From contig QZIL01000021.1 of the NCBI GenBank assembly GCA_003599025.1, forward strand, positions 1 to 64,000: DNA of 64,000 nt, in the 5' to 3' direction. Positions within the stretch are counted from its first letter, which is position 1, and each line of letters starts with the position of its first letter. The notes beneath the pieces are model-generated. The model had not been told where the DNA came from, did not search any database, and was given only the letters and a program-made list of their open reading frames with translations. The translations under genes were made by a program, and so were the position numbers. This document shows positions 9,494 through 41,830 of this stretch, piece by piece. The DNA is from Nitrospiraceae bacterium (GTDB taxonomy: Bacteria; Nitrospirota; Thermodesulfovibrionia; UBA6902).

Positions 9494-9551
9494 GGAGGAA
9501 ATTGAGAATAAATAATAATTCAAGTAAAGCGATGGTTGAGGGAAAAAGTAG

Positions 9552-14442: not shown

Positions 14443-14490
14443 GAACAATAAGTTTAAAGCTACCCAATAAGTAAGTCAACCGGCATGGAG

Positions 14491-14547: not shown

Positions 14548-14570
14548 TGGATATATAATCCCAGAAAACA

Positions 14571-14606
14571 GAAAAACTCCTTGTGGTTAGCCACAGGGAG
14601 TTTTTC
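14571..14606 (-). terminator. Intrinsic terminator at the 3' end of the polysaccharide supercluster
   Basis: AAAAACTCC-TTGTGG-TTAG-CCACAG-GGAGTTTTT folds into a long, nearly perfect stem with a 4-nt loop and a U-tract at the end in either direction. It lies just after the WecA-like gene, the last minus-strand gene of the cluster, and before argS, so it separates the two transcription units. Confidence 0.85.
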
Positions 14607-14641
14607 CGGTCCCCTAAGTCTGTCAGACATATGAGCTTTCT

Positions 14642-15682: not shown

Positions 15683-16322
15683 AATTATGTATCTCCTTTA
15701 GTATTCTTAAGGCCTTGAAGCCTTCTGCATATTTGACTCTTCCCTGGTATCCGCGAAAGTTGGCACAGGACCTGGCGCTCTCAAGGATGGTAAGGTCCTT
15801 GACCCTTGTCCGGTTGATCTGCGAAGCATGTGTGCTTAGAAGGTCCAGCTTTTTGTCCAGTACATCTCTGATATCAACAAATATATCAGGCTGAAAATTC
15901 TTGCTTGACGGCACCTCATAAAAAAGCACCTCTCTTACAAATCGCGTTGCGGAGATGGCGGCCTCTGCTGCAGTCCGGTGGTCCTGATGTGTGTCATCAA
16001 AATAGTTAATCAAAATAGAGTGCGGATCTGTTTCATTTATAACATCTTCAATTAGGGAGATTATTGTTCTTGTTGAGGGAAGGTCCGTGTCGCTGAAATT
16101 GCCCCAGAAGACTTTTTTCACATTGATCAGCTTCGCGGATTCCTCCTGTTCTTTTCTTCTGATCCAGCGTTCTCCTCCAACATCACCCATTGTCAGTATA
16201 AGAAGATAGATGTTATATCCTTTTTCAGCGTACTTCAGCAAGGTACCTCCACAGCCGAATTCAATATCGTCCGGATGACATCCTATGGCCAGAATATTAT
16301 TGCTATTTGAGCTGTAATTCAT
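15618..16322 (-). CDS. PIG-L family deacetylase
   Basis: A 234-residue LmbE/PIG-L protein with the zinc-site HPDD at 16-19, followed by EFGCGGTL, TMGDVGGER near 45-51 and the third ligand region HQDH (112-115). The family removes acetyl groups from N-acetylglucosamine-type sugars on lipids or small molecules. In this cluster it probably de-N-acetylates a sugar nucleotide or lipid-linked sugar. It overlaps both neighbours (20 nt with wbqC-like, 65 nt with the WecA-like gene), so the three are translationally coupled. Confidence 0.88.
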   Translation of the reverse strand: MNYSSNSNNILAIGCHPDDIEFGCGGTLLKYAEKGYNIYLLILTMGDVGGERWIRRKEQEESAKLINVKKVFWGNFSDTDLPSTRTIISLIEDVINETDPHSILINYFDDTHQDHRTAAEAAISATRFVREVLFYEVPSSKNFQPDIFVDIRDVLDKKLDLLSTHASQINRTRVKDLTILESARSCANFRGYQGRVKYAEGFKALRILKEIHNCEYADARDNVLRGGIAFNTSN

Positions 16323-17025
16323 GCGTTACCTCTTCTCCGATCAGAATTTGTTTGCTATACGGTCCTTCATTGAATAATAAATCCACACTTGACATGTATG
16401 GAATGAACGCACTTCCTTTTCCAGCATATTGCTGATGATATACAGGATGCTTAAACTTCTGATAGATTAATTTAATGCCTGCCCGGTCAAATTTATACTC
16501 TTCCAGGTAACCTCTGCCGCCTTCACCCGAAAGATATGCAGTGGCCTTGAATTTTTTACATATTTCTATGATGCGATCTGTTTTGGTAGCACTTATCCCA
16601 AGATTGTGCTCATAATAAAGGGGCGTCGTTATTTCAAGCTCTTTCAGAATATATTTCATCATATCTATGTTTATATGGACTAACCGTTCCGTTTCCCTTG
16701 ACAATATATCTTCAAAAAACGGGATGTAATCATTAAAATAAAGAGAGCTCTGATACCATGTTTTTATGCTGTTGAAATGTTTTTTGCGCCAGCCATTGCT
16801 GTTATCTATCAATACATCACATATTTTTTTCCTGCCTGTACCGCTGGATTGAACAGGCACTGTCAGCCACATCCATCCATCTTTTGTCCTGATTTTGTTT
16901 CTGTTCTGGAACTCTCTCTCTTTATACTGGACCTGGTCCAGAAAGACAAAGCAGTCGCTTTTGGCGATTTTGTCGAACAATCCCAACCATGGCATGTACT
17001 GAGGCTGATGCACTGATAAAATCAT
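16303..17025 (-). CDS. WbqC family protein
   Basis: A 240-residue WbqC-like protein: HQPQYMPWLGLFDKI (6-20), DQVQYKEREFQNRNKI near 30-45, a WLTVPV strand and TTPLYYEHNLGI...KTDRI later. WbqC homologues lie in O-antigen and capsule clusters and are thought to act in amino-sugar modification, without a proven reaction. It is the first of a tight trio with the PIG-L and WecA-like genes. The upstream 301 nt (17026-17326) are AT-rich and hold no gene that I can see. Confidence 0.88.
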   Translation of the reverse strand: MILSVHQPQYMPWLGLFDKIAKSDCFVFLDQVQYKEREFQNRNKIRTKDGWMWLTVPVQSSGTGRKKICDVLIDNSNGWRKKHFNSIKTWYQSSLYFNDYIPFFEDILSRETERLVHINIDMMKYILKELEITTPLYYEHNLGISATKTDRIIEICKKFKATAYLSGEGGRGYLEEYKFDRAGIKLIYQKFKHPVYHQQYAGKGSAFIPYMSSVDLLFNEGPYSKQILIGEEVTHELQLK

Positions 17026-17326
17026 TTTTTATTTACCTCCAGCAATGAAAATACATAAAGATAAATATTATCATCCTGAGATAAGTGTCTCATAATTGGT
17101 CTACTCCCCCTCTGATATTGATAAATCAACTTATGACCTGCCTATAGAAAAGCTAATCGGATTTGTTTAGATAAAATTAATAGGGGGATACTACCGAGCT
17201 ACAATGGGGGATTGAACTATTGATATGCTTGAAATGGGGAATTTCATTAATACGAATCAAAACTTGATCCTGGGATCGAGTTTGTTATGGATGGTTATAG
17301 TATTTATAAATCATCAACCATTGACT

Positions 17327-17408
17327 GTCATGCCCGAAGTCCTTAATCGGGCATCCAGTATCTATTAAAAAGACTCTGGATTCCCGCTCAACAGACTGCG
17401 GGAATGAC
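17327..17408. repeat. Paired-hairpin palindromic repeat (GTCATTCC family)
   Basis: GTCATGCCCG...CGGGCATCCAG and CTGGATTCCCGC...GCGGGAATGAC form two hairpins facing each other about 20 nt apart. The first hairpin uses TGCCCG/CGGGCA where other copies have different paired bases, so stems keep pairing while sequence varies. It lies in the 428-nt gap between the GT4 gene and the WbqC gene. Confidence 0.85.
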
Positions 17409-17453
17409 ACCTCTGATGTGTATAGCCTATTATGAGATTGTTAATTATTGCTG

Positions 17454-18608
17454 TCATCTGCACACCGATTCATATAAATCAGAAAAGCTTGCCACCATTC
17501 TCGATGCACTGAATTTATCGTCTGCCCAGAACCTTGCCATCTCACCCATTCTTTGCCTTTTGTCATTGTCTTCTATTAACGATATCAATGCCCGGGCCAG
17601 CCCGTCTGCATCACCGGGGGGGACCAGTATTCCGGTTTCCATGTCCTTTACTATCTCAGGTATTCCTCCAACCTTTGTTGCAACAACCGGTATGCCGCAG
17701 GCACCTGCCTCAATCAATGTCCTGCCGACTGCCTCATTAAGCGATGGCAATACCAGAATATCCAGACCCGGCAGTATTTCCGGGATGTCCTCTCTCCAGC
17801 CGGTAAAAGTGACGCGGTCGGATATTTTCAGCTCCCTGCACCTCGATTCCAGTTTGTACCTTAACGAACCTTCCCCGACCACCAGAAACTCTGCCTGAGG
17901 GCACTTCTCTGCCACAGAGACTGCGGCCTCAATAAAGTACCCCGGTCCCTTTATCTGCTCCAGCCTTCCTACCATTCCGACCAGAACCGAACCCGACTTA
18001 ATGCCTAATTTATCACGCCTGCCATTTTTATCAGCCTTTACATTCCTGTAAAGCTCCAGTTCGAGTCCGCTGTTGATAATATCGACTTTTTCAGGCCGCG
18101 CCACATTATAGGAAGACAGGTCTTTTTTCTCCAGGTCCGTGAGAGCGGTTATCCTGTCAGTAAAATGTGTAAGAAACCGTTCAGCCATAATTACTAATTT
18201 GCTCTTTGCAGGCCCGAAATACCCATAAAAGTTATGGCCGTGTGAAGTGTGAATTACACCCGCCCTTCCTGCAAGCCGGGCAGCGATCCTTCCTAGCGCT
18301 CCCGCCTTTGCAGTATGAGTGTGTACAATATCAAACTTCTCCTTCCTGAATAAACGATAGAGTCTGAATAATGCGATGATATCATCTAAAGGTTTCACAT
18401 CTCTCTGGAGTTGAGGGACGGTTATGACCCTGTTTTTAAATTCGGTAAGAAAATTTTCAGTCATTGAAGACGGGTTTTTTGAAGGCCCTGTTATTAAGGT
18501 TATATCAAACCTGTCAGGGTCAAGGGATTTGCACACCAGCCTGATTATGTCCGGTGATCCGCCCCAGTCAAGGCGTGTAATTACCTGTGCGATTTTAATT
18601 TTTTTCAT
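17454..18608 (-). CDS. Glycosyltransferase family 4 protein
   Basis: A 384-residue GT4 enzyme. The N-terminal half has VITRLDWGGSPD (9-20) and the VHTHTAKAGALGR strand (95-107) followed by HTSHGHNFYGYF. These resemble polysaccharide GTs of the EpsD/CapM type. The donor domain has GMVGRLEQIKGP (211-222), VVGEGSLR and the E-x7-E site NEAVGRTLIE (291-300). It presumably adds one sugar to the lipid-linked repeat unit at the cytoplasmic face. A full foldback element lies in its upstream region (18654-18807). Confidence 0.9.
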   Translation of the reverse strand: MKKIKIAQVITRLDWGGSPDIIRLVCKSLDPDRFDITLITGPSKNPSSMTENFLTEFKNRVITVPQLQRDVKPLDDIIALFRLYRLFRKEKFDIVHTHTAKAGALGRIAARLAGRAGVIHTSHGHNFYGYFGPAKSKLVIMAERFLTHFTDRITALTDLEKKDLSSYNVARPEKVDIINSGLELELYRNVKADKNGRRDKLGIKSGSVLVGMVGRLEQIKGPGYFIEAAVSVAEKCPQAEFLVVGEGSLRYKLESRCRELKISDRVTFTGWREDIPEILPGLDILVLPSLNEAVGRTLIEAGACGIPVVATKVGGIPEIVKDMETGILVPPGDADGLARALISLIEDNDKRQRMGEMARFWADDKFSASRMVASFSDLYESVCR

Positions 18609-18653
18609 ATATGGCTTACCTTACAGTTTCATTACATTACTCATATGAGGCAT

Positions 18654-18807
18654 GCGGTTTTGACGGAAAAGCTTTACCTGCGATACCTTAGCGAGATTTA
18701 TTAACGCACAAATAATGTCTTTCCGGACTTCACCATGCGTTACGTCCTGCCGTTAATATTTATTCCCAATATCTCATCGCATTGTAAAGGTTTTACGGCA
18801 AGACCGC
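18654..18807 (-). repeat. Foldback element, full copy A, upstream of a GT4 gene
   Basis: Terminal arms of about 32 nt (18654-18685 and 18776-18807) are inverted copies: GCGGTTTTGACGGAAAAGC on the left against GCGGTCTTGCCGTAAAACC for the right arm reversed. The centre holds CACCATGCGTTACGTCCTGC (18731-18750), which differs by one base from the centre of copy B at 39489-39660. It ends 45 nt before the start of the downstream minus-strand gene. Arms differ between copies but still pair, which favours a conserved hairpin. The rest of the 309-nt gap (18808-18917) holds no gene. Confidence 0.75.
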
Positions 18808-18917
18808 TTGACTGATTTATGCAACATTAAGGTTAACATTATTAGCAAGAAGGGAAGCCTGGAGTATGTCTTCCACTTGACCCCTCTACTCCTTGACTCC
18901 TGCCTATTGACCCTCAG

Positions 18918-20075
18918 TTAATACCTGTACAATTCCGTACATCTTACACATGCGGGAAGCATTCTGTTTTCCCGCACAGTGCTGCGAAACCTGACCGCTT
19001 TTTCACTGTTCCACACTTCAGCAAAACTTTCCGCCCTCACATTCCCGAATGAGTAATCGAAGTTCAGGCATGGTCTCAGTTCTCCGTCAGGGAATATATA
19101 TCCTGTCATCCATGGACTTACACATCTGCCCTGTCCATTTGACGGGGCATATGAGGGATTAAGGTAATAATCATTAAGCTGCTCCTTCGAAAAATTGGGA
19201 TACATGTCTATAGGGAAGTCCGGTTTGCTTCTGGAGATGTCCTTAATCTTTGCATGCAGTGCTTCAGGATCAACTTGCGGCTCACAAACAAAGCCCTCCC
19301 AGTTTAAGGAAGAACAGTCAAGCATCCGGTCAAACTCAAGCTGCTTCTCCATTGTGTCCCTGTCAAGAAAAATAAGATTGTGAAAGGTAAGGGAGTTTGC
19401 CCTGATTTCCTCTGCCACGGTCACCATCTGTTCAAGATGCCGATAATTGTGCCGGTTTATAGTGCACTGCAGATTAATCAGGGGGGTTTTTGTCTTCATC
19501 TTTTCTTTCAGGTCTGTTACCTCTTTAAGGCCGTCCATAATCCTGCTGTACAGACCGGGCACCCCGCGTATTTCATCATGAAGCTCCATCCCCCCGTCAA
19601 CCGACACATTGAGTTCATCCAGCCCGCTCTCAACCAGCCCATGTCCATACCTGGATAGCATTGACCCGTTTGTAATCATCAGGCAGTGAAGTTCTTTTTT
19701 CTTAATATATCCTATCAGCTCATGGGCATGGCGATGCAGAAGCGGCTCTCCCCCGAACAGGGTAATATTAGGCCTGAAAGACGCAATGTCATCAATGATT
19801 TTTTTCATGTCTTCAACCGGCATATCAGCAGTCCTGTCCCCTGCGGGTTTATTTCTTGTGACACCCTGGTCCCCCCACTGTCCGCACATCCTGCAGCGCA
19901 GGTTGCATCGATGAGTCAAAAACAGGGTGACAGCTTCAGGCAGCCCCGCCTCTCCATTGCCGGCATAATATGCGTAATATGCCTTTGAACGTTTTGCCGC
20001 TACCTTACCTGCATATACAGGCTGGTTAAATATCTTGCCCAGAAATCTTCTGGAATTTCTCCACGGGATTTGCAT
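18918..20075 (-). CDS. Radical SAM/SPASM protein in the polysaccharide cluster
   Basis: A 385-residue radical SAM enzyme. The [4Fe-4S]-SAM motif is C57-NLR-C61-RM-C64, preceded by VTLFLTHR. GGEP, the SAM amine-binding motif, occurs as LFGGEPLLH near 107. The C-terminal SPASM region has CVSPW, a CLNFDYSFGN stretch and CVRCTELYRY. Its start overlaps the DegT aminotransferase gene by 50 nt. No short peptide gene lies beside it, so it may act on a sugar or other small molecule rather than a peptide. Function beyond radical chemistry is open. Confidence 0.88.
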   Translation of the reverse strand: MQIPWRNSRRFLGKIFNQPVYAGKVAAKRSKAYYAYYAGNGEAGLPEAVTLFLTHRCNLRCRMCGQWGDQGVTRNKPAGDRTADMPVEDMKKIIDDIASFRPNITLFGGEPLLHRHAHELIGYIKKKELHCLMITNGSMLSRYGHGLVESGLDELNVSVDGGMELHDEIRGVPGLYSRIMDGLKEVTDLKEKMKTKTPLINLQCTINRHNYRHLEQMVTVAEEIRANSLTFHNLIFLDRDTMEKQLEFDRMLDCSSLNWEGFVCEPQVDPEALHAKIKDISRSKPDFPIDMYPNFSKEQLNDYYLNPSYAPSNGQGRCVSPWMTGYIFPDGELRPCLNFDYSFGNVRAESFAEVWNSEKAVRFRSTVRENRMLPACVRCTELYRY

Positions 20076-21270
20076 GTTCAGTTCCTTTTATCTGTTTTGT
20101 AGAAGTAACCAGTCCGATTAATCTTCTTATGTCTTTTCCGGACAGCATGGAGTGAACCGGCAATGCTATGAGGTGATCGGCAAGATGCACGGCATTCGGA
20201 AAGGCATCCTTTTCATAGCCGAGATCATAGACGTGGTGCAAAGGATTTACATCCATGCTGGCGCTTTGTATCCCTGCCTGTTTAAGGGCAGCCTCGATCC
20301 TCTTCTTCCGGTCCATGTCTTTCACCATGATCGGAAGGCGGTTAAAGGAAGGTTCCATTGTTTCCCTTATTTCAGGAAGAACTATTCCCCTGTCATCTCT
20401 TAATGTGTTCATAATAGTTGCAGCACTATAATGCCGATCCAGGACTGATTGATTAAACCTCTTTAGAAGTGAGGCCCCTAATCCAGCCTGAACAGGCGTA
20501 TACTTAAAAACCGGGAAGTCATCAGGATATGTCTGATTTTTTGACGGACCCATAAACGGACAGGCAATGGTATAAAAAAGCGGCCTGAATAACATCGCCA
20601 GCACTATAAATTTAACAAAGAGAGAACACTCCTGAATAAATCCGGCGTCCTTGAAACCGCCAAGGGTTTTCTCGATGTCGTCTCTCAGTCTGTCTGAATT
20701 TACAATTAAGGCCCCTCCTCCGTAAGTAGGCAGGTGCTTCCCCCTGTTAAAGCTGAATATGGCGGCATCGGCAAAACTGCCGGTCAGCCGTCCGTCCACT
20801 TTTACGCCCATCGCCTGGGCACAATCCTCAACAAGAAAAACATCTTCAGGCAAATCATCCTTTATCTTCGCTATGTCACCAACAGGCATGCCGAACATGT
20901 GAACACAGACAACGCACAGGGTGTCGGATGTAACCGCTTCCCGCACGGTGTTAGCTGTCATGTTAAATTCCTTTCCCGATATGTCGCACAGCACCGGCTT
21001 GAGGCCGGCCTTCCTTATGGCAACAACAAGGCACCTTGCAGCATGGGCCGGAATGATCACCTCTCGCTTCAGAGATTTCGTTTTCAGAGACTGAAGAATG
21101 GTGTAAAAGGCTGCTGTACCTGAGTTGACGAGATATATTCGTCCTGATGGAATGAATGAAGAAAGGGTGGCCCCGAACCTTTCCCTGCTATTTCCTGATA
21201 AAAAATACAGCAGGCCGGAAACCATATCAGACAGGGTTATCCTGTAACCTATGACAGGTATCTTCAGCAT
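20026..21270 (-). CDS. DegT/DnrJ/EryC1/StrS family aminotransferase
   Basis: A 414-residue PLP enzyme of the sugar-aminotransferase family. It has NSGTAAFY at 49-56 (PLP phosphate loop), VEDCAQAMG (147-155) with Asp149 for the pyridine nitrogen, and the Schiff-base Lys178 in FSFNRGKHLP. Typical substrates are nucleotide keto-sugars, giving amino sugars. Hydrophobic stretches near 222-240 and the N-terminal IGYRITLSDM are less usual for the family. It overlaps the radical SAM gene by 50 nt and abuts a methyltransferase, so the three may modify one sugar. Confidence 0.87.
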   Translation of the reverse strand: MLKIPVIGYRITLSDMVSGLLYFLSGNSRERFGATLSSFIPSGRIYLVNSGTAAFYTILQSLKTKSLKREVIIPAHAARCLVVAIRKAGLKPVLCDISGKEFNMTANTVREAVTSDTLCVVCVHMFGMPVGDIAKIKDDLPEDVFLVEDCAQAMGVKVDGRLTGSFADAAIFSFNRGKHLPTYGGGALIVNSDRLRDDIEKTLGGFKDAGFIQECSLFVKFIVLAMLFRPLFYTIACPFMGPSKNQTYPDDFPVFKYTPVQAGLGASLLKRFNQSVLDRHYSAATIMNTLRDDRGIVLPEIRETMEPSFNRLPIMVKDMDRKKRIEAALKQAGIQSASMDVNPLHHVYDLGYEKDAFPNAVHLADHLIALPVHSMLSGKDIRRLIGLVTSTKQIKGTEHANPVEKFQKISGQDI

Positions 21271-21945
21271 TTATTTTTTAACGCCTTCAAACATGATAAT
21301 CGGGGCCATTGGCTTTAAAGGGAAAAACAGGGGTCTCTCACGCACGATTTCAAACCCTGCATTTTTCAGGATGACGCGTATTTCCGCAGGCTTGTATGTG
21401 CTGAGATTGAGGTTTCTGCTGGTCGCATCGTAGTACTTTGCGAGTTTGTACTTCACGACAAGAAAAGGGTTCAGTGAATTACGGATGTCAAAGATAATCC
21501 TGCTGCCCTTTTTGCATACTCTTGCTATTTCATTTAAGGAGCTGCTAACTTTTGCAATAGAATCCATATTGAGGAATACGTTTATACAGACTACCTTATC
21601 GAAGAAGGCATCCTCAAAAGGCAGATCGGATGCATCTGCCCTCCGCAACGTTACGCCAGGCCGCAGCTGATTTAATCTCCTCTCCGACTTTGATAATGCC
21701 TCGTCCCACTGGTCAACTCCAAAGATCTCCAGTCCGGGAAATGCCTTTATGAGACCGGCAAGGAACAACCCCTCTCCGCAGCCTACTTCAAGAAGCCGCC
21801 CTTTCTGCATTGCGCACATGTCCTGGGCGGTCTGCCGCACCAGATACTGCCAGTAGCCTGAGGAATATTCTCCCCTTTCCTCAGGCTTTGACATTGCCTG
21901 GTGAAGACGGTAATACATTTTTTCAATTGACATAAACTTTTCCAT
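21271..21945 (-). CDS. Class I SAM-dependent methyltransferase
   Basis: A 224-residue Rossmann methyltransferase with SAM motif I LLEVGCGEGLFL (51-62), an acidic motif II region (IFGVDQWDEA) and RADASDLPFEDAFFD near 110. Such enzymes in glycan clusters methylate sugars or the end of a chain. The stop abuts the DegT start, while its own start overlaps the upstream GT4 gene by 23 nt. An internal ATG at residue 6 is an alternative start. Confidence 0.85.
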   Translation of the reverse strand: MEKFMSIEKMYYRLHQAMSKPEERGEYSSGYWQYLVRQTAQDMCAMQKGRLLEVGCGEGLFLAGLIKAFPGLEIFGVDQWDEALSKSERRLNQLRPGVTLRRADASDLPFEDAFFDKVVCINVFLNMDSIAKVSSSLNEIARVCKKGSRIIFDIRNSLNPFLVVKYKLAKYYDATSRNLNLSTYKPAEIRVILKNAGFEIVRERPLFFPLKPMAPIIMFEGVKK

Positions 21946-23086
21946 AATCCGATAATAAACCTCCTACTGTCTTGCTGATCATTTCCCACCTGAAGTCCTT
22001 CATCACTCTCTCCCTTCCCTTCATGCCATAACTCCCGGCTAACTCTCTGTCCGAGAGGATCTGAATTATCTGATCAGCGAGAAGCTCTGTGTCCAGAGGA
22101 TCGATCAATACTCCTGTTTCTCCGTTAAGTACTGAGTCTGAAGTGCCTCCCGATCTCCCGCCAATTACAGGTTTGCCGCAGGCCCCGGCCTCAATAAAGG
22201 AAATACCGAAGCCCTCCACAGCTTCAAATCCATCAGTTTCTCTGTTAGGCAGCACATACAGGTCACAGGCGTTATAATATTTTGGAAGGTCTTCATCACT
22301 GACAAATCCTGCGAAAACAATATGATCTTCAAGATGTAATTCATGTGCCAGCATCTGAAGCCTCTTTTTTTCGGGACCGTTGCCAATGATTACATATCTT
22401 ATGTCCGGTATCTTCTCAACCACTTTTTTCAAAGAACGGATGACCGTGTCATTGCCTTTTCTCGGTACCAGGCGGCCTACTGTCATTATCACTCTCCTGT
22501 TTTCCAGATCATGCTTTTTCACCAGGTCCCTGACGTCCATATCAGGCCTGAACTGGTCCGCATCAACTCCGGGAGTGACTTTCAACAGCTTCTCATCAGG
22601 TATGCCGAACCTGCTGTATTCTTCATCAGTATAAGAGCTGTTCGTAATGACCCTGTCGGCATTGTCCAGGATGCATTTAAGCATTTTCAAAAACAGCTTA
22701 CTGTCTTTAAACTTTATCGTTTCTCCCCCATATACCCAGACATGGTAAGGCATATTAAACAGTTTCCTGAAAATCAGGCCTACGGCCCCGATGATCATCG
22801 GCTGACCGCATATCAGCAGGTCTATCTTTTCTTTTCTCGTTATCCTCATTGTATGGACAAAGAGCAAAATTGCACTCAGGAATTTCTTAATGATATCCGT
22901 CTCCAGAGAATACTTTTTACGGACGACCTGTATTCCGTTTACCCTGTCAAACTCAAGAGAGCCCCTTACACGCGGTGCCAGGACAAGACACTGATCAGCG
23001 GGGAGAGATTTCCAGATGTTATAAAAGACCGTAGCGATACCGCTCACAATCGGTGGAAAGTCATATGTAATCAGCAAGGATCGCAT
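21923..23086 (-). CDS. Glycosyltransferase family 4 protein
   Basis: A 387-residue GT4 enzyme. The acceptor half starts ITYDFPPIVSGIATV (6-20), the PP-x-x-GG/SG turn common to mannosyl- or phosphatidylinositol-mannoside-like GT4s. The donor half has MTVGRLVPRKGNDT near 193-206, VIIGNGPEKKRL and the E-x7-E site VEGFGISFIEAGACG near 293-307. A short extra loop (NRETDGFEAVE) precedes it. It probably transfers a hexose to the growing unit. Confidence 0.9.
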   Translation of the reverse strand: MRSLLITYDFPPIVSGIATVFYNIWKSLPADQCLVLAPRVRGSLEFDRVNGIQVVRKKYSLETDIIKKFLSAILLFVHTMRITRKEKIDLLICGQPMIIGAVGLIFRKLFNMPYHVWVYGGETIKFKDSKLFLKMLKCILDNADRVITNSSYTDEEYSRFGIPDEKLLKVTPGVDADQFRPDMDVRDLVKKHDLENRRVIMTVGRLVPRKGNDTVIRSLKKVVEKIPDIRYVIIGNGPEKKRLQMLAHELHLEDHIVFAGFVSDEDLPKYYNACDLYVLPNRETDGFEAVEGFGISFIEAGACGKPVIGGRSGGTSDSVLNGETGVLIDPLDTELLADQIIQILSDRELAGSYGMKGRERVMKDFRWEMISKTVGGLLSDYGKVYVN

Positions 23087-23092
23087 CTGAAA

Positions 23093-24241
23093 TTAATTAC
23101 TCCTCAAAAGTCCCTCGAATATATTCAACATATCCACACTCATTTTCTGAAAAGAATATTCACCTGCTTTTTGAAAGCCCCTTTCCTGTAAATGCTGTCT
23201 CAGGCCCCTCCGTGTCAGAACGTCTTCGATTGCCCGGGCCATTTCATCCGAATTCAGGGGGTCAACAAGCACAGCTGCATCCCCCAGGATCTCTGGGATG
23301 CATGACCTCTTTGAACTTATAACCGGAGTCCCGCAGGCCATTGCCTCAAGAGGAGGAAGCCCGAATCCTTCATAAAATGATGGAAACAGAAACACCTCTG
23401 CTCCACTATAGATGGCCGGAAGGTGTTTGTTTTCAATAAAACCCGTAAATATCGCTTGCTCCGCTATTCCCAGCTCTACACAAAGCCTTTCCATTTTATT
23501 ACGGCCACCATCTTTTTTGCCGCCCAGTACAAGTTTATATTCTCTTCGCAGCTCATGTTTTATTTTTGCATATGCTTTAAGAATGCCTTCCACATTCTTG
23601 TGCGGCGCAAAATTACCTACATAAAGCATGTAGTTCCCCTCAATGCCATAATTATTTTTGGCCCTCTTTATTTCATCCATGCCTCTAGGGTTAAATTCAT
23701 CGCCAAATCCTTCATAAATTACTTCGACCTTCCCTTCCGGCGCTTCAAATAAATCCACGATGTCTTTTTTTGAATAGTTCGAAACGGTAAGGATTTTAGC
23801 TGCATTCTTTGCCATGAGACGAGACCACAATTTCAATATAGGACCAAATCTGTAAGCTGTCCTGTGTCCGCCAGCAGCCTGACTATCATTCACTGAATGC
23901 CCGATTTTGACGAATGGTGTTACATCATGAACTGTTATTACCGTCGGACAGTGAGCTAAAAGTGGCGTTTTGTAATATGGTGAAAAGAATATGTCTATTT
24001 TTTCCCTTTTCAGCAATTTGGGAAGCTCGACCTGATCCCAGATAACAGTAGATTTCTCGGTCATGATAATATGTTTCATGTTCTGGTGTGCCGGAGAGAA
24101 GAACGTATTCTGGTTTCCAATAACAATAAACTCCCATGAAGGGGCTATATCAGGGGCATACTTCAGAAAATTAGAGACAAACCTGCCTATGCCGTTAACT
24201 TCATTCCTTCTGATGTCTCTGGCGTCAATTCCGATCTTCAT
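23093..24241 (-). CDS. Glycosyltransferase family 4 protein
   Basis: A 382-residue GT4 enzyme from the ATG at 24241 (MKIGIDARDI); a longer frame would use a TTG at 24280. IGIDARDIRRNEVNGIGRFV is the common GT4 opening, IWDQVELPKLLKREKID comes near 84-100 and TVITVHDVTPFV near 113-124. The donor half has LYVGNFAPHKNVEG, LVLGGKKDGG and the E-x7-E site SFYEGFGLPPLEAMACG. It resembles mannosyl- or rhamnosyl-transferases, but specificity cannot be read from sequence. Confidence 0.9.
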   Translation of the reverse strand: MKIGIDARDIRRNEVNGIGRFVSNFLKYAPDIAPSWEFIVIGNQNTFFSPAHQNMKHIIMTEKSTVIWDQVELPKLLKREKIDIFFSPYYKTPLLAHCPTVITVHDVTPFVKIGHSVNDSQAAGGHRTAYRFGPILKLWSRLMAKNAAKILTVSNYSKKDIVDLFEAPEGKVEVIYEGFGDEFNPRGMDEIKRAKNNYGIEGNYMLYVGNFAPHKNVEGILKAYAKIKHELRREYKLVLGGKKDGGRNKMERLCVELGIAEQAIFTGFIENKHLPAIYSGAEVFLFPSFYEGFGLPPLEAMACGTPVISSKRSCIPEILGDAAVLVDPLNSDEMARAIEDVLTRRGLRQHLQERGFQKAGEYSFQKMSVDMLNIFEGLLRSN

Positions 24242-24298
24242 TTGTAAATATCGCAAGTCAGACAAAGGAGGCCGCAGCAAAGGTTTTCATAACATTCA

Positions 24299-25366
24299 TC
24301 AGGAGAGCAATGAATCATAAATCCCCTCGATCATGCCCGTATTCTTTCTTACATCAAACAGCTGCTCGGCCCTGCCTCTGGTCTTTTCTCTCATACTGCA
24401 CAGAATCCGGCGATCATCCGATACTTTTCTTATTATGGCCGCCAACTTCTCATGATCACCTGCAGGAAACATGAATTCTTTCAGCTCTTCACCCATGGCT
24501 TCCCTGCTGGACATGAGATCAGTAGCTATTACGACCTTTCCCATCGCCATCGATTCAATTATCATCCTCGAAAGGCCCTCTTCTTTCATTGCGGGTAAAA
24601 CCACTGTATCAACTGCCGACATATCATCGAGGATATTCGGCCTGTAATTTTTATATGTTACGCTGACGCCTCCTGACATCGCGCCAAGTTCCTCCAGATA
24701 TTCCGGGTCTCCGTCTCCCATAACGGTCAGTTCCACTTCCCTGTTTATGCTCCTCATTGCCCCAAGGAGTGCATCTATGCCTTTTCTGCGCTGTATCTGT
24801 CCAAAATAACCGATTTGCAGGGGCCCGTTATTTTCGCATCTGTCTGAAGGCCGGAATGCATCCAGTTCAACCCCGTTAAAAATAATAGCGACTTTGTTCT
24901 TCCTGTCCCTGAATCTCCTGGCAGCGGTCCCGGATACCGCAATCAGTCGGTCTGTCAAATAATACAGAAGCCTGTCCCCCAAGACATGGGAATCTGATAC
25001 ACGTGCATGGAAAATAACACGCACCCCGGAGACCTTTTTTACCAGCACTGCATAAAAGGCCTCACGTGGCGACTCTGTATGAATCAAATCGATCCTGTTT
25101 TCCCTGACTATCCTCCACAACCGGACCAGACTGCTTGCAGGAGATGCAGCATTAATCGTCCGGATCCTCGGGAACGGCAGAATAAATGTTTTCACGCCCA
25201 GCCTGGCGGCTTCTTCAGACAATTCATCTTCCTTCGGTACAACCAGAAAGGGCTGGAACCTGTCTCTGTTAAGATATTTAATCAACAGATGCAGGCTTCT
25301 CTGCCCGCCTCCGCGCATGGAGCTGAAGCAGCTTGTAAACAATATGTTATATTTCTGCGGCCCCAT
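24299..25366 (-). CDS. Glycosyltransferase family 4 protein
   Basis: A 355-residue GT4 enzyme. It begins YNILFTSCFSSMRGGGQRSL, with the GGGQRS turn of the acceptor domain, and has RIDLIHTESPREAFYA near 92-107. The donor half has QIGYFGQIQRRKGIDALL near 187, LTVMGDGDPEYL and EEGLSRMIIESMAMG, the E-x7-E site. The start overlaps the upstream GT4 stop by 20 nt. It is one of five consecutive nucleotide-sugar GT genes (21923-27510). Confidence 0.9.
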   Translation of the reverse strand: MGPQKYNILFTSCFSSMRGGGQRSLHLLIKYLNRDRFQPFLVVPKEDELSEEAARLGVKTFILPFPRIRTINAASPASSLVRLWRIVRENRIDLIHTESPREAFYAVLVKKVSGVRVIFHARVSDSHVLGDRLLYYLTDRLIAVSGTAARRFRDRKNKVAIIFNGVELDAFRPSDRCENNGPLQIGYFGQIQRRKGIDALLGAMRSINREVELTVMGDGDPEYLEELGAMSGGVSVTYKNYRPNILDDMSAVDTVVLPAMKEEGLSRMIIESMAMGKVVIATDLMSSREAMGEELKEFMFPAGDHEKLAAIIRKVSDDRRILCSMREKTRGRAEQLFDVRKNTGMIEGIYDSLLS

Positions 25367-26552
25367 TGTTCCTCTTGAGCAGCCCCTGGTACAAATCTTC
25401 TATTTTTTCAAGCATCCCCTGTACTGAAAATTTCTTCTTTACGATCGCCCTTCCTTCTACACCCATCTGTATGGCCTCTTCTCTATGATTAAGCATGTAT
25501 AACATAGCCCCTGCCAGCGAAGCGGTATCTTTCGGCGGCACAAGCAGGCCGTTTTTCCCATGTTCGACTACTTCAGGAAGACCCCCGAGGGATGTTGCTA
25601 TGACTGGCTTGCCTGCAGCCATGGCCTCAATTATTGCCAGTCCGAGCCCCTCCCTTTCAGATGACGGCAGGACCGCAATATCAACTGAGGACATAATTTC
25701 AGAGATGTCCGTGACTGTCTCCCTGAATATGATGTATGAACTTATTCCAAGTCTTTCTGCCTGTTCTTCAAGTTCCCCCTTCAGTGCCCCTTCCCCGACC
25801 AGGACAAATTTGACTTTATCTGAACAGGTATCAATAACAGATTTTGCGGCATCCAGAAGATATTTATGTCCCTTGTGCGGCGCAAAAGAAGCCACACAGC
25901 CGATTACAATCTCTTTTTCATCTGCAATACGTCTCTGTGAATTACGTTCAAATTTATCAATATCCACACCGTTATAAATGACCTCCAGCTTATCGGCCCT
26001 GATTTTTTCACGGTCGCCTGCGAGATCTGCTACAGCCTGAGAACAGCACAATATTCTGTCACTGAAACAACTCAAGAATTTCTCTATAAATAACTGCCTG
26101 CGGGTACAATCCCAATAAGTTGTGTGCATGTGAGAAAGTACGACCGGAGTCCTGGCAAAAATACCTGCCAGTCTTCCCATGGTAGTAGCCGTGCAGCCAT
26201 GGGTATGAAGGACATGAATTCTTTCTCTTCTTAATTTCCTGCAGAGGTTCGCAAAAAACAGGACATCCCTGTGTGATCTCATATTTAATATCTGGACATC
26301 GATTCCCTTATTTTTCAATTCATCAAATATCCGGCCTCCGCGGACCAGACACCAGACACTGGGATGAAACCGGTTTTTATCCAGCCCTGTTGCGATAGTG
26401 TCGACAACTCGCTCCAGTCCCCCGATTTCCAGGGCCTCCACCATGTGCACTACGTTTATAACGGACCTTTTCCGTACGCTACCGCACGCACGCGATTTAT
26501 GTCCTGTGGTACTGCTGAACACGTCCACTCTGTCTTTATTGAGGGAATACAT
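25347..26552 (-). CDS. Glycosyltransferase family 4 protein
   Basis: A 401-residue GT4 enzyme. After about 30 uncertain N-terminal residues comes INVVHMVEALEIGGLERVVDT (32-52), with the GGLERV turn seen in PEP-CTERM/XrtA-linked and other exopolysaccharide GTs. VLHTHGCTATTMGRLAG lies near 105-121. The donor domain has CVASFAPHKGHKYLL, LVGEGALKGELE and the E-x7-E site EREGLGLAIIEAMAAG. The true start may lie downstream of 26552, since the first 30 residues look unlike the family. Confidence 0.9.
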   Translation of the reverse strand: MYSLNKDRVDVFSSTTGHKSRACGSVRKRSVINVVHMVEALEIGGLERVVDTIATGLDKNRFHPSVWCLVRGGRIFDELKNKGIDVQILNMRSHRDVLFFANLCRKLRRERIHVLHTHGCTATTMGRLAGIFARTPVVLSHMHTTYWDCTRRQLFIEKFLSCFSDRILCCSQAVADLAGDREKIRADKLEVIYNGVDIDKFERNSQRRIADEKEIVIGCVASFAPHKGHKYLLDAAKSVIDTCSDKVKFVLVGEGALKGELEEQAERLGISSYIIFRETVTDISEIMSSVDIAVLPSSEREGLGLAIIEAMAAGKPVIATSLGGLPEVVEHGKNGLLVPPKDTASLAGAMLYMLNHREEAIQMGVEGRAIVKKKFSVQGMLEKIEDLYQGLLKRNNGAAEI

Positions 26553-34948: not shown

Positions 34949-35776
34949 TTAATAGTGAACCAGGCTGCCTTCCTTTTTTGCCTTTCTAACAGCATATGAA
35001 AAGGTCATGACCCCGACAGGCAGAAAGACTGCCGTAAAGAGAGCGAGTGCCCCTATATGCGGGACAAGATCCGAAAAAGAGCTCCCTGCCAGAAGCGCGC
35101 CCCTGAGCCCGTTTAATGTATGAGTGATCGGCAGAAACATCGCAATGTCCTGGAGGAAATCCGGCAGAACAGCGACCGGATAATATACCCCGCCAAGGAG
35201 GCTGGAGGCTGTAAGGAACACCCAGGTCACAGGATCACCCTTTTTAAAAATCATGATGACGGCTGCAGATATAATGCCCAGACTGCCCGAGCTTGTTAAG
35301 GTCAGGATGAGAATAATCAGTGCAGCGGACAGTTCATTTAATTTCAGATTCACCTTGAAAATTAATATCCCTATTATCAGGTACAGAAATATGTCAGCAG
35401 TTGCCAGAAGGAATTTCCATAGCGCCTGGCTTACAAGCATTATGGAGAGCCTCGTAGGAGTGAGCAGGATTGCTTCGAGTGTTCCGGTTATCTGTTCATT
35501 TCGTATCGCGTTTGCAAAGCTGCTCAGGCCTGATGAAAGGTAGCCGGAAAAAGCGATGCCGATCAATACAAAAGGGAAATATTCCCCTCCATATGCCTCC
35601 AGATAAGGACTCACTTTATAACCAAATGTTCTGGAAATAAAGAAGAACGTGAGCACAGTAAGAACAATGCCTGAAAGATTGAAGAAAAAGAATAAACGGT
35701 AACTGGTATCTATAAGGAAGTCACGTTTTATGAAGGCATACGCCCTACGCAGAAACATAAGGTCCTTCCCTTTCAC
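34949..35776 (-). CDS. ABC-2 type transporter permease
   Basis: A 275-residue membrane protein with six hydrophobic segments and the ABC-2 pattern (IRNEQITGTLEAILLTPTRL near 95-114, the coupling helix region; LGGVYYPVAVLPDFLQ near 195-210). It overlaps the ATPase gene by 32 nt, so they form one exporter. Such exporters move drugs, lipids, polysaccharide or peptides. Here it lies 3' of the radical SAM/peptide genes and 5' of the SLBB gene, so the cargo could be the modified peptide or a glycan. Confidence 0.88.
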   Translation of the reverse strand: MKGKDLMFLRRAYAFIKRDFLIDTSYRLFFFFNLSGIVLTVLTFFFISRTFGYKVSPYLEAYGGEYFPFVLIGIAFSGYLSSGLSSFANAIRNEQITGTLEAILLTPTRLSIMLVSQALWKFLLATADIFLYLIIGILIFKVNLKLNELSAALIILILTLTSSGSLGIISAAVIMIFKKGDPVTWVFLTASSLLGGVYYPVAVLPDFLQDIAMFLPITHTLNGLRGALLAGSSFSDLVPHIGALALFTAVFLPVGVMTFSYAVRKAKKEGSLVHY

Positions 35777-36551
35777 AGATGTCTGCAGGTCCGGTTACCC
35801 TTCTGAATATCTCATACAGGTCAGCCTCTGCTGATCCGGTTTCATCCCTCAACTCTCCTAAAGTACCCATTGCCATAATCCTGCCGTGATGCATAATTGC
35901 TATACGGTCGCATATCTCTTCTGCCTCAGCCATCTGGTGTGTAGTCATAAAGACAGTCTTTCTTCTCTTTTCCACAAGCTCTGCTTTGATAAACGTTCTT
36001 AATTTAGAGGCCGCGAGCGGGTCAAGGCTCTTTGTCGCCTCATCAAGAAAAAGTATCTGAGGATCATTGAGCAGGCTCCGGGCAATGAGCATCCGCTGCC
36101 TGATGCCGCTTGAGCATTTCTGGAAACTGATATCAGCCTCTTTCTCTATTTCGAGCAGAGAGAGGACCTCGCCTATTTTTTCCTTTGATGATTCAGAGGA
36201 CAGTCCGGAGAGGGCTGCAAAGAAATCGAGGTTTTGCCTTCCGGTAAGTCTCCAGTAAAAAGACCTGTCATCACCGCTCACAAGACCGATGGACGCCTTG
36301 ACTTTGCTCTCATAAAGAGACGTGTCATATCCGTTTACAATAATACTGCCCGACGTAGGAATTATGAGTGTGCAGAGTAGCTTGATCAGGGTTGATTTCC
36401 CTGCCTGGTTCGGCCCGACCAGGCCGAAGAGTTCCCCCTCCCTCACGTCAAGTGCTACCCCGTCAACTGCTTTAAGGATCTCCCTTCTGCCCCATATCGG
36501 CCCCTGCCGGAAATGCTTCTTTAAATTCGATGTATGTATGGCAATATTCAT
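35745..36551 (-). CDS. ABC transporter ATP-binding protein (DrrA/NatA-like)
   Basis: A 268-residue ATPase. Walker A is GPNQAGKS (46-53), the signature is CSSGIRQRM near 148 (divergent from LSGGQ, as in many ABC-2 ATPases) and Walker B ILFLDEATKSLDP near 167. TTHQMAEAEEICDRI near 202 is the H-loop region. It overlaps the fusion protein upstream by 4 nt and the permease downstream by 32 nt, so all three are co-translated. Confidence 0.9.
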   Translation of the reverse strand: MNIAIHTSNLKKHFRQGPIWGRREILKAVDGVALDVREGELFGLVGPNQAGKSTLIKLLCTLIIPTSGSIIVNGYDTSLYESKVKASIGLVSGDDRSFYWRLTGRQNLDFFAALSGLSSESSKEKIGEVLSLLEIEKEADISFQKCSSGIRQRMLIARSLLNDPQILFLDEATKSLDPLAASKLRTFIKAELVEKRRKTVFMTTHQMAEAEEICDRIAIMHHGRIMAMGTLGELRDETGSAEADLYEIFRRVTGPADICEREGPYVSA

Positions 36552-38218: not shown

Positions 38219-38228
38219 GTCACATTAA

Positions 38229-38269
38229 CCTCCTCCCCTTACCAAGGGGGGGCTGGGGGGGTCCCTCCT
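38229..38269. repeat. Palindromic repeat upstream of the fusion gene
   Basis: CCTCCTCCCCTTACCAAGGGG plus GGCTGGGGGGGTCCCTCC is of the same class as 1690-1785. On the coding (minus) strand it ends AAGGGGAGGAGG about 10 nt before the fusion gene's ATG, so the repeat appears to provide the ribosome binding site. Confidence 0.7.
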
Positions 38270-38271: not shown

Positions 38272-38418
38272 CTAAGCCATCAGTTTTGTACAGGGAACCG
38301 CCTTCATACATACTCTCGGAGCGATACGTGAGGAATTGCATACCACTGACAATACTTCAATCTTCTTCTCATATACGATCTCAGGCTTTTTATATGCTTT
38401 TTTCTTCTCTTCCTTCAT
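38272..38418 (-). CDS. 48-residue Cys-containing peptide, candidate radical-SAM RiPP precursor
   Basis: A small frame begins one base after the radical SAM stop (TGA-G-ATG), with AGAGG 7-8 nt before the ATG, so it is translationally coupled. The product has a charged N-half (KKKAYKKPEIVYEKK, 5-19), then IEVLSVV (20-26), and a C-half with Cys27, Cys37 and Cys43 ending TKLMA. A Lys-rich leader with a YxxPEI(V/I)xE motif, then a Cys-bearing core, beside radical SAM and PqqD genes is the normal look of a precursor peptide. Exact cleavage site and modification are unknown. It is not homologous to anything that I can name with certainty. Confidence 0.75.
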   Translation of the reverse strand: MKEEKKKAYKKPEIVYEKKIEVLSVVCNSSRIAPRVCMKAVPCTKLMA

Positions 38419-38419: not shown

Positions 38420-39448
38420 TCACACCTCTAAACATGTTCCCCTGGCAGTATTTTTCAGCGCTTTTGCAAGCATACACGCCGCACTCGACGGCCCCAGATA
38501 ATCTTCATCTTCAGACACCGCCAGTCCTGGGCAGCGGCGGCAGTATGGCGCCTTATCACACGATCTGCAGGTATGGAGTTCATCAAACTTAATCGACCTT
38601 ATTCGCTGAAAATGTCCTGACTGCATAATCTGTTCAATTGATTGTTCCCGTACGTTTCCTGCGTCCTGTTTCCAGCCGACGCAGGGATAAACTTCACCAT
38701 ATGGGGATATCAAAAGGTTGTTCAGTCCGGCAGTACACATAAATGTGTCGTCATTAACAGACTCCAATGGCTCAAAAGAAGCGGCCCTGTCGTCCTCCCT
38801 GAATATTTTAGTCATACCATCGGTATCGAGTCTGTAACGCAACGTGTCCCTTGAACCGTCATCTTTCGGTACAACGGTCATGTCATATACGAAATCCGAG
38901 TCGAGTTCATGGGACAGCTTTGTTAAAGCACCCAGCTGGTCTGCATTCTGATTCATCAGGAGGCTTTTAACTACTCTTTTTACCCCTCTTTGACCAAGCA
39001 GCTGAAAAGCCCTCATGGTCTTCTTAAAGGAACCTTTCGTGCCGGTAATACTGTCATGTATTTCAGGGTCAGCAGCGTATACGCTCATCTCTACCGACAG
39101 GGGATTGAGTTGCTTTATCTCATCAGCCATTTCACTGCTGATAAACGTGCCGTTTGTTAACAGCCTCAATGCAAACCCTTTGCTGCGGCTATAACGCGCA
39201 ATTGTGAAAAAATCCTTTCTAGTTAAAATCTCACCGCCGCTGAATGTTATATACAGGGACTGAAGGGCTGCCAGTTCATCAATAACAGACATGATCTCTT
39301 CTGTGGTTAGCTCTTTTTTATCATCCCTGCGGACGCAGTAGCAGTGGCTGCAGGCCATGTTGCATCTGTGTGTAAGCTCCCAATGTACAATAAAGGGGAT
39401 GTTCCTCTCCATTGTCTTTTTTATAATGTCGTTGTAATGGTCCTTCAT
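38420..39448 (-). CDS. Radical SAM/SPASM peptide-modifying enzyme (candidate)
   Basis: A 342-residue radical SAM protein. The cluster motif is C29-NMA-C33-SH-C36 after VHWELTHR, with FSGGEIL near 73 as the GGE motif. From about 235 the SPASM region has CTAGLNNLLISPYGEVYPC, and CRSC, CRRC and a final Cys near 327 follow, enough for two auxiliary [4Fe-4S] clusters. Such enzymes make thioether, C-C or epimer changes on peptides. PqqD and an HprK-like gene lie upstream and the Cys-containing peptide immediately downstream, so that peptide is the natural substrate. Foldback element B precedes it. Confidence 0.88.
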   Translation of the reverse strand: MKDHYNDIIKKTMERNIPFIVHWELTHRCNMACSHCYCVRRDDKKELTTEEIMSVIDELAALQSLYITFSGGEILTRKDFFTIARYSRSKGFALRLLTNGTFISSEMADEIKQLNPLSVEMSVYAADPEIHDSITGTKGSFKKTMRAFQLLGQRGVKRVVKSLLMNQNADQLGALTKLSHELDSDFVYDMTVVPKDDGSRDTLRYRLDTDGMTKIFREDDRAASFEPLESVNDDTFMCTAGLNNLLISPYGEVYPCVGWKQDAGNVREQSIEQIMQSGHFQRIRSIKFDELHTCRSCDKAPYCRRCPGLAVSEDEDYLGPSSAACMLAKALKNTARGTCLEV

Positions 39449-39985: not shown

Positions 39986-40796
39986 CTATATGCCTCCAGA
40001 ATGAATTATCTTTTGTAAAATGCATTTCATACAAGCCATATTCAACAAGAATTCTGCTGAATATATCAAAGAGTTTCTCAACCGGCTGCAGCTTGTTCGG
40101 AATATGTGGAACCGTTAAGATATCTGCCAGGGCCTGCGAGAGGGACAATTCTTTTATATACGTTGTGTTGTCCTGCTTCAGTGTAAATATTCCGCCAATA
40201 TCATAGCCTCTGTTTTCCCTTTTGCCTATATGCATGTCCAGCCAGTGGGGGGCAGTGTAGGCCTGATATTTGCCGTTGCTTCGTTTAATGATCACCATAT
40301 CATCACTTAATATGGTACAGTCGTCTGACAACGCAGACACAGTTGATTTACCTGCGCCTGAGTGGCCCATAAATATATAAACTTCATCATCCTTCAGTAT
40401 CCCCGCTGCGTGCAAAACCACCGCATCTTCGTGCAGGATAAGCCTGAAGGTAAACATATTTCTCAGGAGAGTGCCGAGTCCCATTAACATGCCGCTTCTG
40501 CTTATAAGGGCCGAGCCGCAGGTAAGGTCTTTGTTAATTTTACTCTCCAGGTGATCGTCTGACAGTCTTAATTCATCGCCAGTGACCGACAGACCGGCCC
40601 AGGAGGAATTATTGACATACGGCTCATCAGTAAGCGTTATGTCCAGAGTAAGGGATGGCGGCCTGTCAGAAAGGAAAAGAGAATAATCCCTCCGGACACT
40701 GCTGATGAATTCAGAGGACTCTGATCTTAACATGATGCAAATTTCTGCAACTTCTATTTTTATCTCTTTCATCAGTCTCCGCTTTGCTTCAGACAT
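39960..40796 (-). CDS. HprK-related kinase (HPr-rel-A type)
   Basis: A 278-residue protein resembling the C-terminal domain of HPr kinase/phosphorylase. It has VVLHAAGI near 126-133, Walker A GHSGAGKS (144-151) and an ILSDDMVII acidic pair (Asp165-Asp166). No HPr or PTS gene is visible in the window. In the related HPr-rel-A systems the kinase accompanies PqqD and a nucleotidyltransferase, and its substrate is unknown. Phosphorylation of the precursor peptide or a partner is inference. It overlaps both neighbours. Confidence 0.85.
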   Translation of the reverse strand: MSEAKRRLMKEIKIEVAEICIMLRSESSEFISSVRRDYSLFLSDRPPSLTLDITLTDEPYVNNSSWAGLSVTGDELRLSDDHLESKINKDLTCGSALISRSGMLMGLGTLLRNMFTFRLILHEDAVVLHAAGILKDDEVYIFMGHSGAGKSTVSALSDDCTILSDDMVIIKRSNGKYQAYTAPHWLDMHIGKRENRGYDIGGIFTLKQDNTTYIKELSLSQALADILTVPHIPNKLQPVEKLFDIFSRILVEYGLYEMHFTKDNSFWRHIDGLKQHVS

Positions 40797-41830
40797 TCCT
40801 TGATGTGAATAATGGGATAGTTCAGTAAATTAATTATGTTCTGTTCGTCCGGTTTTTTGTAATCACTGTTTAAAAGCACATGCAGTACCGGCCTTGTTGG
40901 GTGGCCCTGATTGATTGCAGCAACCCGGCATGTTTCTCCGGTATTTAATCTGACCAGGCTTCCGACAGGGTAGACCCCGACCATATTAATAAAAGCCTTC
41001 ATTACTTTATAGTCATAGGAGTGTTTCATCTGTAATATGTTATGTACCGATTCATGGGGCATACATCTGTCGCGATGCGGCCGTGAATGGGTCAGGGCCT
41101 CATATGTGTCCGCAAGATGTATTATCCGGGAGTATATATTGAGGGATTCTCCTCTCAGGCCACGGGGATAGCCTGATCCGTCTATGCGTTCATGATGCTG
41201 AAGTGCGACCTGAACAGCTACTTCGGGCAATTCATCGGCCTCCTCCAGAATTCCGGCACTCATGAATGTATGGTTCTGTATTTCCCTGTATTCTTTAGAG
41301 GAAAGTTTTCCGGGCTGCATGGCCTGCTTCATATATTTCATCATTCCTATATCATGAAGAAATGCCGAGATACCGAGTTCTGTTAATCCGGTCTTGTCGT
41401 AACCTATGTCCTGCCCGATTTTAATTGATAATATACTCACATTGACTACATGGCTGCTGAGATAATCCTGCGCGTTCCCGGACATTAGAACAGGCAGATG
41501 ACTGTTATTGAGGAGCAACTGCTCGACAAGTTTCTCTACGCATAAATTTACAGGACCACACTTAATAACTTCATTCCCGGACAACCTGTCATGGATCTCT
41601 TTTGCAAGAGCCATTGCCATATGATAAAGGTCCGAACTTTCACTTTCATTTTGTGCAGTGCTTTTCTGCTTTTCAGAAAGCTTTGAACTGAATACATCAA
41701 AGGACGTGTCGTCCAGACCACCCGGCCCGCTATATCCCTCTGCAGAAATATCGCGCTCTGCCTGTGTCTCCTGTTCTATAGCCTTATGCCTGATATAATC
41801 TCTGTGACTGCTGGCCTTCACTTCTTTCAC
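40772..41830 (-). CDS. HD-GYP domain protein, probable c-di-GMP phosphodiesterase
   Basis: A 352-residue protein. The HD-GYP domain has FLHDIG (His159-Asp160), NHTFMSAGIL, HHERIDGSGYP (His212-His213, GYP 220-222) and HLADTYEALT. An N-terminal DUF3391-like stretch without the receiver domain is the rest. The full set of metal and GYP residues argues for activity on c-di-GMP, a common control of exopolysaccharide. It is the first gene of the minus-strand supercluster and overlaps the HprK-like gene by 25 nt, so it reports or tunes c-di-GMP for the whole unit. Confidence 0.92.
   Translation of the reverse strand: MKEVKASSHRDYIRHKAIEQETQAERDISAEGYSGPGGLDDTSFDVFSSKLSEKQKSTAQNESESSDLYHMAMALAKEIHDRLSGNEVIKCGPVNLCVEKLVEQLLLNNSHLPVLMSGNAQDYLSSHVVNVSILSIKIGQDIGYDKTGLTELGISAFLHDIGMMKYMKQAMQPGKLSSKEYREIQNHTFMSAGILEEADELPEVAVQVALQHHERIDGSGYPRGLRGESLNIYSRIIHLADTYEALTHSRPHRDRCMPHESVHNILQMKHSYDYKVMKAFINMVGVYPVGSLVRLNTGETCRVAAINQGHPTRPVLHVLLNSDYKKPDEQNIINLLNYPIIHIKECLKQSGD

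Follow-up and report, generated by a model that had tools for sequence, protein, structure and literature searches.

A 48-residue reading frame beside a radical SAM gene of a Nitrospiraceae bacterium as the probable precursor of a modified peptide made by a cassette resembling that of linear polyphosphorylated peptides

Does a reading frame of 48 codons, starting one base beyond the TGA of a radical SAM gene (38420-38422), encode the precursor of a modified peptide, and if so, what kind of pathway would mature it? The frame lies in a stretch of 64,000 nucleotides from a Nitrospiraceae bacterium (contig QZIL01000021.1), which is referred to at its full length as the window, and its product is MKEEKKKAYKKPEIVYEKKIEVLSVVCNSSRIAPRVCMKAVPCTKLMA (48 codons and a stop, minus strand, 38418 to 38272), with cysteines at positions 27, 37 and 43. 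The original prediction had proposed this frame without giving a strand, and the frame, its AGAGG ribosome site at 38425-38429 and the three cysteine positions were all recovered in this study; the plus strand of the same interval contains stops in translation and is not open. The accompanying remark that routine calling would miss the gene is doubtful, as 147 nt exceeds the minimum length used by common gene callers.

With reference to the coding evidence, the sequence comparisons show that the frame is a real coding gene for a precursor peptide, with a maturase and a leader-binding domain encoded close by. Among 396 genomes of the phylum, BLAST detected a 70% identical frame in G334, a genome from another genus of the same family. 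Stops or frame shifts in the same spacer of relatives, which the original prediction had named as counter-evidence, were looked for in a codon-level comparison with G334, and none of either was found. Third codon positions account for 29 of the 48 nucleotide differences (binomial p 1e-4), and the values of pN 0.18 and pS 0.88 are near those of the radical SAM gene between the same two genomes (pN 0.21, pS 0.81). Additionally, a leave-out HMM, trained on the frames of other organisms only (window and G334 excluded), recognized the window frame at 41.2 bits (E=1e-11), against 12.1 bits for the top of 5000 residue shuffles, and the runner-up among 1831 six-frame segments of the window had E=0.3. 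The stretches KKAY, IVYEKKIEVLSVVCNS and CMKAVPC are kept between the two precursors, and the interval from Cys27 to Cys37 is variable. NCBIfam and Pfam hold no family for the window precursor, NCBIfam holds none for eight members of the precursor family, relatives included, and the precursor profile matched no PDB chain.

Table 1. Position and basis of the features assigned to the peptide cassette in the window
Feature	Coordinates	Strand	Basis
ABC-2 type permease	34949..35776	-	PF01061
ABC transporter ATPase, DrrA-like	35745..36551	-	Pfam; 228 bits to drrA, below equivalog cut-off
S24/S26 SpI-like protease fused to NTP_transf_5 nucleotidyltransferase, 556 aa	36548..38218	-	PF14907 4.5e-51, PF00717 6e-05
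Precursor peptide gene, 48 aa	38272..38418	-	ORF; G334 homologue under purifying selection; leave-out HMM E=1e-11
Predicted core VVCNSSRIAPRVCMKAVPCTKLMA, Cys at core 3, 13, 19	38275..38346	-	Cys27/Cys43 invariant n=17; Cys37 in 3-Cys subfamily
Predicted leader, residues 1-24	38347..38418	-	ungapped register with LPP motif; -3/-1 residues
YKKP (YxxP, expected RRE-binding), residues 9-12	38383..38394	-	Tyr9/Pro12 invariant n=17; LppB/TbiB1-type RRE nearby
Radical SAM/SPASM maturase, 342 aa	38420..39448	-	Pfam PF04055 + PF13186; CX3CX2C + SPASM Cys conserved
AGAGG ribosome-binding site of precursor	38425..38429	-	-11 to -7; sequence
PqqD-family discrete RRE, 100 aa	39683..39985	-	Pfam PF05402 E=7.8e-15
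HprK-like kinase, 278 aa	39960..40796	-	HprK_rel/ScmC profiles (below cut-off); P-loop + D165; model

Relatives of the locus were sought by scanning GTDB contigs with a radical SAM alignment of three sequences, which yielded 80 loci; a scan of genome contigs with a single radical SAM sequence gave no relative, and an alignment of seven sequences was too diverse for patterns. Many of the 80 loci bring an HprK-like kinase, a PqqD-like protein and the radical SAM enzyme together, and in these loci a small frame with Y-x-x-P-x-[IV] and Cys adjoins the radical SAM gene. We aligned 17 precursors, most of them from metagenome bins, which belong to Nitrospirota (the window and G334), Omnitrophota (L022), Lentisphaerota (L028), Chloroflexota and Acidobacteriota and have in common the motif Y-x-x-P-x-[IV]...E...[AS]/xxC...C, the slash marking the predicted cut. 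Tyr9, Pro12, Glu21, Cys27 and Cys43 are invariant in 17/17, the invariance of Tyr and Pro being partly due to selection, since the first candidates were chosen by a regular expression with Y..P and Cys; a second, stricter expression, fixing also the Glu and the first Cys, contributed L022, L033 and L036, and L030 and L040 were found by profile. The original prediction considered all three cysteines to be targets for thioether or disulfide formation, and such bonds are plausible. Its Cys-bearing core holds, but only Cys27 and Cys43 are family-wide, Cys37 being restricted to a three-cysteine subfamily (window, G334, L022 and L028) with an extra Cys-Met ahead of the last Cys. The leader is basic, as had been claimed, but its kept motif is Y-x-x-P-x-[IV]-[IV]-[YH], containing the YxxP expected to bind the RRE, and not PEIVYE as such. 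Outside the host's family the nearest precursor is that of L022 (MDKKRKKEYLKPKIVYEKKIEALAAVCNTQWMGPGSTCCMKISCVKRSS), whose radical SAM protein falls, with 96/92 support, in one group with its counterparts from the window and G334. The core varies in length and sequence among relatives; a core Lys is kept in most of them and Met38 in the three-cysteine subfamily, and either might, at a guess, serve as the cross-link partner of Cys. A weak precursor match, L004, was set aside, as it has a stop and no cassette. Separately, a Chloroflexota sister group (L045, L046, L048, L049, L052, L054 and L060) displays WxEPxI leaders and cores in which the first Cys is absent and a single Cys stands near the C-terminus (FCY, FCV, FCT, GCL), where a separate core chemistry is possible.

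Along the minus strand the genes follow the order HprK-like kinase, PqqD/RRE, radical SAM/SPASM enzyme, precursor, SpI-like/NTP transferase fusion, ABC-2 ATPase and permease. Among solved proteins, the radical SAM profile built from seven relatives is nearest to SkfB, followed by PqqE and CteB. No curated NCBIfam equivalog cut-off was passed by the enzyme, and homology thus does not fix its chemistry: the top match, the mycofactocin maturase, scored 142 bits against a cut-off of 265, StsB, among the best matches, 127.6 bits against 625, and the AlbA and SkfB models also stayed below cut-off. The RRE matched TbiB1 (4.8e-06) and LppB (9x8z, 2.1e-04) in single-sequence comparison, two proteins whose structures were solved with YxxP leaders bound. 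In the kinase, the P-loop and Asp165 are conserved in 20-23 relatives; since a single-sequence PDB search was uninformative, a structure model (pLDDT 89.5) was used, and its best fold match is PEP carboxykinase with HPr kinase/phosphatases second, at modest TM-scores that make this fold-level evidence. PEP carboxykinase and HPr kinase/phosphatase folds have a common core. Matches to the protease model belong to the LexA/signal peptidase fold, among them SipA, LexA and the human signal peptidase. Ser33 of the protease is present in 14/15 and His71 and Asp90 in 15/15 relatives, all three being found in 13/13 of a second alignment. Judged from these alignments, the catalytic residues are intact and the cassette parts look functional. 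As further observations on the layout, an HD-GYP-like protein is encoded at 40772-41830 (-) with a 25-base overlap with the start of the kinase gene, and this gene is possibly a co-transcribed cyclic-di-GMP phosphodiesterase. Between the precursor stop and the protease gene lies a GC-rich, inverted-repeat-like element (38225-38267, core CTTACCAAGGGGGGGCTGGGG), which has partial copies at six other sites of the genome, is absent from the G334 spacer, and is a dispersed repeat that may affect expression of the genes behind the precursor.

The known system closest to this arrangement is that of the linear polyphosphorylated peptides (LPPs; Popov et al. 2026, PMC13381572), in which LppB presents the leader to the SpI-like protease LppS for cleavage, the HprK-like LppK phosphorylates core Ser3, and the remaining members are LppN, an NTP transferase, and a pump of the MsbA-like type, the clusters lying in capsule loci. 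Common to both are a discrete RRE, related to LppB by sequence matches, an HprK-like kinase with an NTP transferase, a SpI-like leader protease with a Ser/His/Asp triad corresponding to the residues that LppS needs (Ser29, His68 and Asp93; PMC13381572), an exporter, a polysaccharide locus and the lack of an adjoining lasso cyclase. The LPP leader motif, YxxPxVLxHQxIxFET/xxS (PMC13381572), whose register is independent of our candidate search, can be aligned with the window precursor without a gap, placing Y9KKP12 on YxxP, Ile20 on the Ile at motif position 12, Ser24 on the Thr at -1 and Cys27 on the phosphorylated Ser3. Residues before the predicted cut are A, V or S at -3 and A or S at -1 in 16/17 relatives, with L042 shifted by one residue (examples are EAMA/SVC, EAIA/GVC, EVLA/AAC and EVLS/VVC), and such small residues obey the signal peptidase I rule. 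Based on this register and the -3/-1 rule, we place the predicted cut behind Ser24, which would give the core VVCNSSRIAPRVCMKAVPCTKLMA. Contrarily to LPPs, the window cassette adds a radical SAM/SPASM enzyme, has Cys27 in place of phospho-Ser3, lacks the HQ and FET residues of the leader and exports through an ABC-2 ATPase and permease instead of an MsbA-like pump. LPPs, with phosphorylation as their primary modification, were called restricted to Bacillota by their authors (PMC13381572), whereas cassettes of the window type occur in Nitrospirota, Omnitrophota, Lentisphaerota, Chloroflexota and Acidobacteriota. Because the Ser3, HQ/FET and MsbA features differ, we do not class the cassette as an LPP one, though it would work like LPP machinery with an extra enzyme. 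The main text of PMC13381572 makes no mention of radical SAM, and a description of radical SAM paired with LPP-type machinery was not found in the main texts of open-licence literature on HPr kinase with radical SAM and RiPPs, SynChlorMet, Chloroflexi radical SAM RiPPs, and radical SAM with signal peptidase RiPPs.

Our preferred explanation, to which we give a probability of roughly 65%, is that the product of the frame is the precursor of a ribosomal, modified peptide and that its cassette combines LPP machinery with a radical SAM/SPASM enzyme. The chemical steps, their order, the product with its cross-link and phosphate, and its biological role are what we infer from the genes, as follows. 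The PqqD-type RRE would bind the leader through Y9-x-x-P12 and present it to the enzymes; the radical SAM enzyme would modify the core, most likely by thioethers from Cys27 and Cys43 (and Cys37 in the subfamily) to other core residues; and the kinase would phosphorylate a core Ser, here most likely Ser29, which the window and G334 precursors have in common, and in Chloroflexota relatives the C-terminal Ser. In pseudomycoidin, PsmK phosphorylates and PsmN places a hexose on the phospho-Ser, suggesting a glycosyl-phosphate here, so that the NTP transferase may add a sugar or nucleotide to the core phosphate. The SpI-like domain would then cut after Ser24 and free VVCNSSRIAPRVCMKAVPCTKLMA, which the ABC-2 pump would export; the product is probably exported. 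This explanation is favored by the recurrence of the order kinase-RRE-radical SAM-precursor, the RRE similarity to proteins bound to YxxP leaders, the gapless leader register with small -3/-1 residues, the protease residues matching LppS, the action of LppK/LppS and PsmK/PsmN on peptides, the nearness of the radical SAM profile to the thioether-forming SkfB, and the exopolysaccharide setting, as for LPPs. It is weakened by the Cys at the LPP phospho-Ser3 position, by the C-terminal Ser, found in most Chloroflexota and Acidobacteriota precursors, being absent in the window and G334, by the ABC-2 transporter, by the radical SAM scores below every curated cut-off, and by the SpI-like gene, which was detected in 10/17 precursor loci and in none of the other 7/17 within the stretches examined (the G334 contig starts inside the RRE gene, and L036 ends shortly past the precursor). 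What the original prediction claimed, that the radical SAM enzyme has a partner precursor whose leader is basic and whose core bears Cys, is supported. The prediction is incomplete, for it had not placed the RRE, kinase, SpI-like protease, NTP transferase, exporter and exopolysaccharide locus; it is the full cassette that turns the reading away from a simple sactipeptide-like precursor and towards an LPP-like pathway to which radical SAM is added.

An ordinary radical SAM peptide, like a sactipeptide or ranthipeptide (a bacteriocin, for example), with the kinase and NTP transferase acting elsewhere, such as on exopolysaccharide, is the best of the competing explanations, and we consider it unlikely. 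Systems such as SkfB, StsB and CteB likewise have a radical SAM/SPASM maturase adjoining a Cys-bearing precursor, and the structural neighbors SkfB and CteB, the StsB score and the two invariant core Cys would fit it; but a kinase and NTP transferase accompany the window maturase, which passes no curated maturase cut-off, and its leader carries YxxP where theirs carry HIxxI. Moreover, kinase and RRE lie within 7 kb of radical SAM and precursor in 14/17 loci across phyla, including loci where no exopolysaccharide gene was checked, and the related kinases of LPP and lasso systems have the peptide as their substrate. Far less probable is a peptide-derived redox cofactor retained in the cell in the manner of PQQ or mycofactocin. 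PqqD with radical SAM/SPASM is indeed the PQQ/mycofactocin pair, and the mycofactocin maturase heads the NCBIfam matches, but none of the PQQ, mycofactocin, SynChlorMet and GeoRSP maturase/RRE equivalog cut-offs was reached, on which ground we rejected PQQ and mycofactocin; the core is also variable, an exporter, a leader protease and exopolysaccharide genes adjoin, and no partner dehydrogenase was found among the genes scanned. SynChlorMet (ScmC/ScmD/ScmE/ScmF) similarly unites an HprK-like protein, a PqqD-like protein and radical SAM/SPASM enzymes, but the window proteins are far below all Scm profile cut-offs and its precursor family gave no match. The paeninodin/pseudomycoidin-type lasso peptides, in which the C-terminal Ser of paeninodin-like members is the phosphorylation site, also have an HprK-like kinase, an NTP transferase, a discrete RRE and a Y/WxxP leader; the window differs in its radical SAM enzyme and SpI-like protease, and a lasso peptide was rejected because no macrolactam synthase or B2 protease occurred among the window proteins scanned with Pfam around the precursor. 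A chance frame in an intergenic spacer, which the short length and the four same-genus genomes without the precursor and without a close radical SAM might suggest, is rejected as extremely improbable in view of the purifying selection against G334, the leave-out HMM score and the recurrence in distant phyla of the precursor at its place downstream of the radical SAM gene.

The LPP-like cassette with radical SAM sits within an exopolysaccharide locus. Beyond the ABC-2 genes, the window harbors exopolysaccharide export, chain-length, polymerase-like, flippase and glycosyltransferase genes. In G334 a 67% identical radical SAM gene immediately precedes the precursor and the same fused protease/transferase gene comes next, followed in the window's order by ABC ATPase, permease, Wza-like (52% identical to that of the window), Wzz-like, O-antigen-ligase-like and flippase genes, and by this shared order the genes for the peptide and for exopolysaccharide make up a single block. 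The precursor was found in 2/37 genomes of the host's family, indicating a patchy, accessory locus. Tentatively, and with odds well below even, the cassettes could represent a distinct, widespread RiPP class whose peptide is cross-linked by radical SAM, (glyco-)phosphorylated and exported as a component or conjugate of exopolysaccharide. A radical-SAM-bearing counterpart of LPPs in five phyla other than Bacillota would connect peptides of the radical SAM kind with exopolysaccharide loci, and, if true, the RRE, SpI, HprK and NTP transferase kit would be a portable module accepting different core chemistry; the precursor, the predicted cleavage point and the named residues are directly testable. 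Also in the exopolysaccharide locus of the window, a further radical SAM/SPASM protein (18918-21270, -) has a DegT-type aminotransferase as its neighbor.

Again, related cassettes were observed elsewhere. A second radical SAM peptide cassette of the same genome (contig C40, L122 = 14000-26000; 5336-11675) has two near-identical precursors, YAEPKVLATYGREDLKGIMMPHGSVPNPSGCGCGGGS and its copy, with the leader Y[AE]EPKVLATYG and the core end SGCGCGGGS, together with two radical SAM genes, an HprK-like kinase, a SpI-like protease, two PqqD-like genes and, on the other strand, NTP_transf_5, and this supports the idea of a modular kit. On contig C59 of this genome (L121 = 1-12000; 2955-8063), PqqD-like, HprK-like, B2-type transglutaminase-like, NTP_transf_5 and ABC-2 genes stand together in what may be a cluster of the lasso-like or a related type, where neither a cyclase nor a precursor was identified. 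Within the phylum, L016 (1366-1545 and 4547-4762) and L017 (2943-3119) contain related cassettes with dissimilar cores, one of which is Gly-rich (GGGGQGGGGQGGGG), the long ones displaying at least four Cys after IPERT[SA]YAC.
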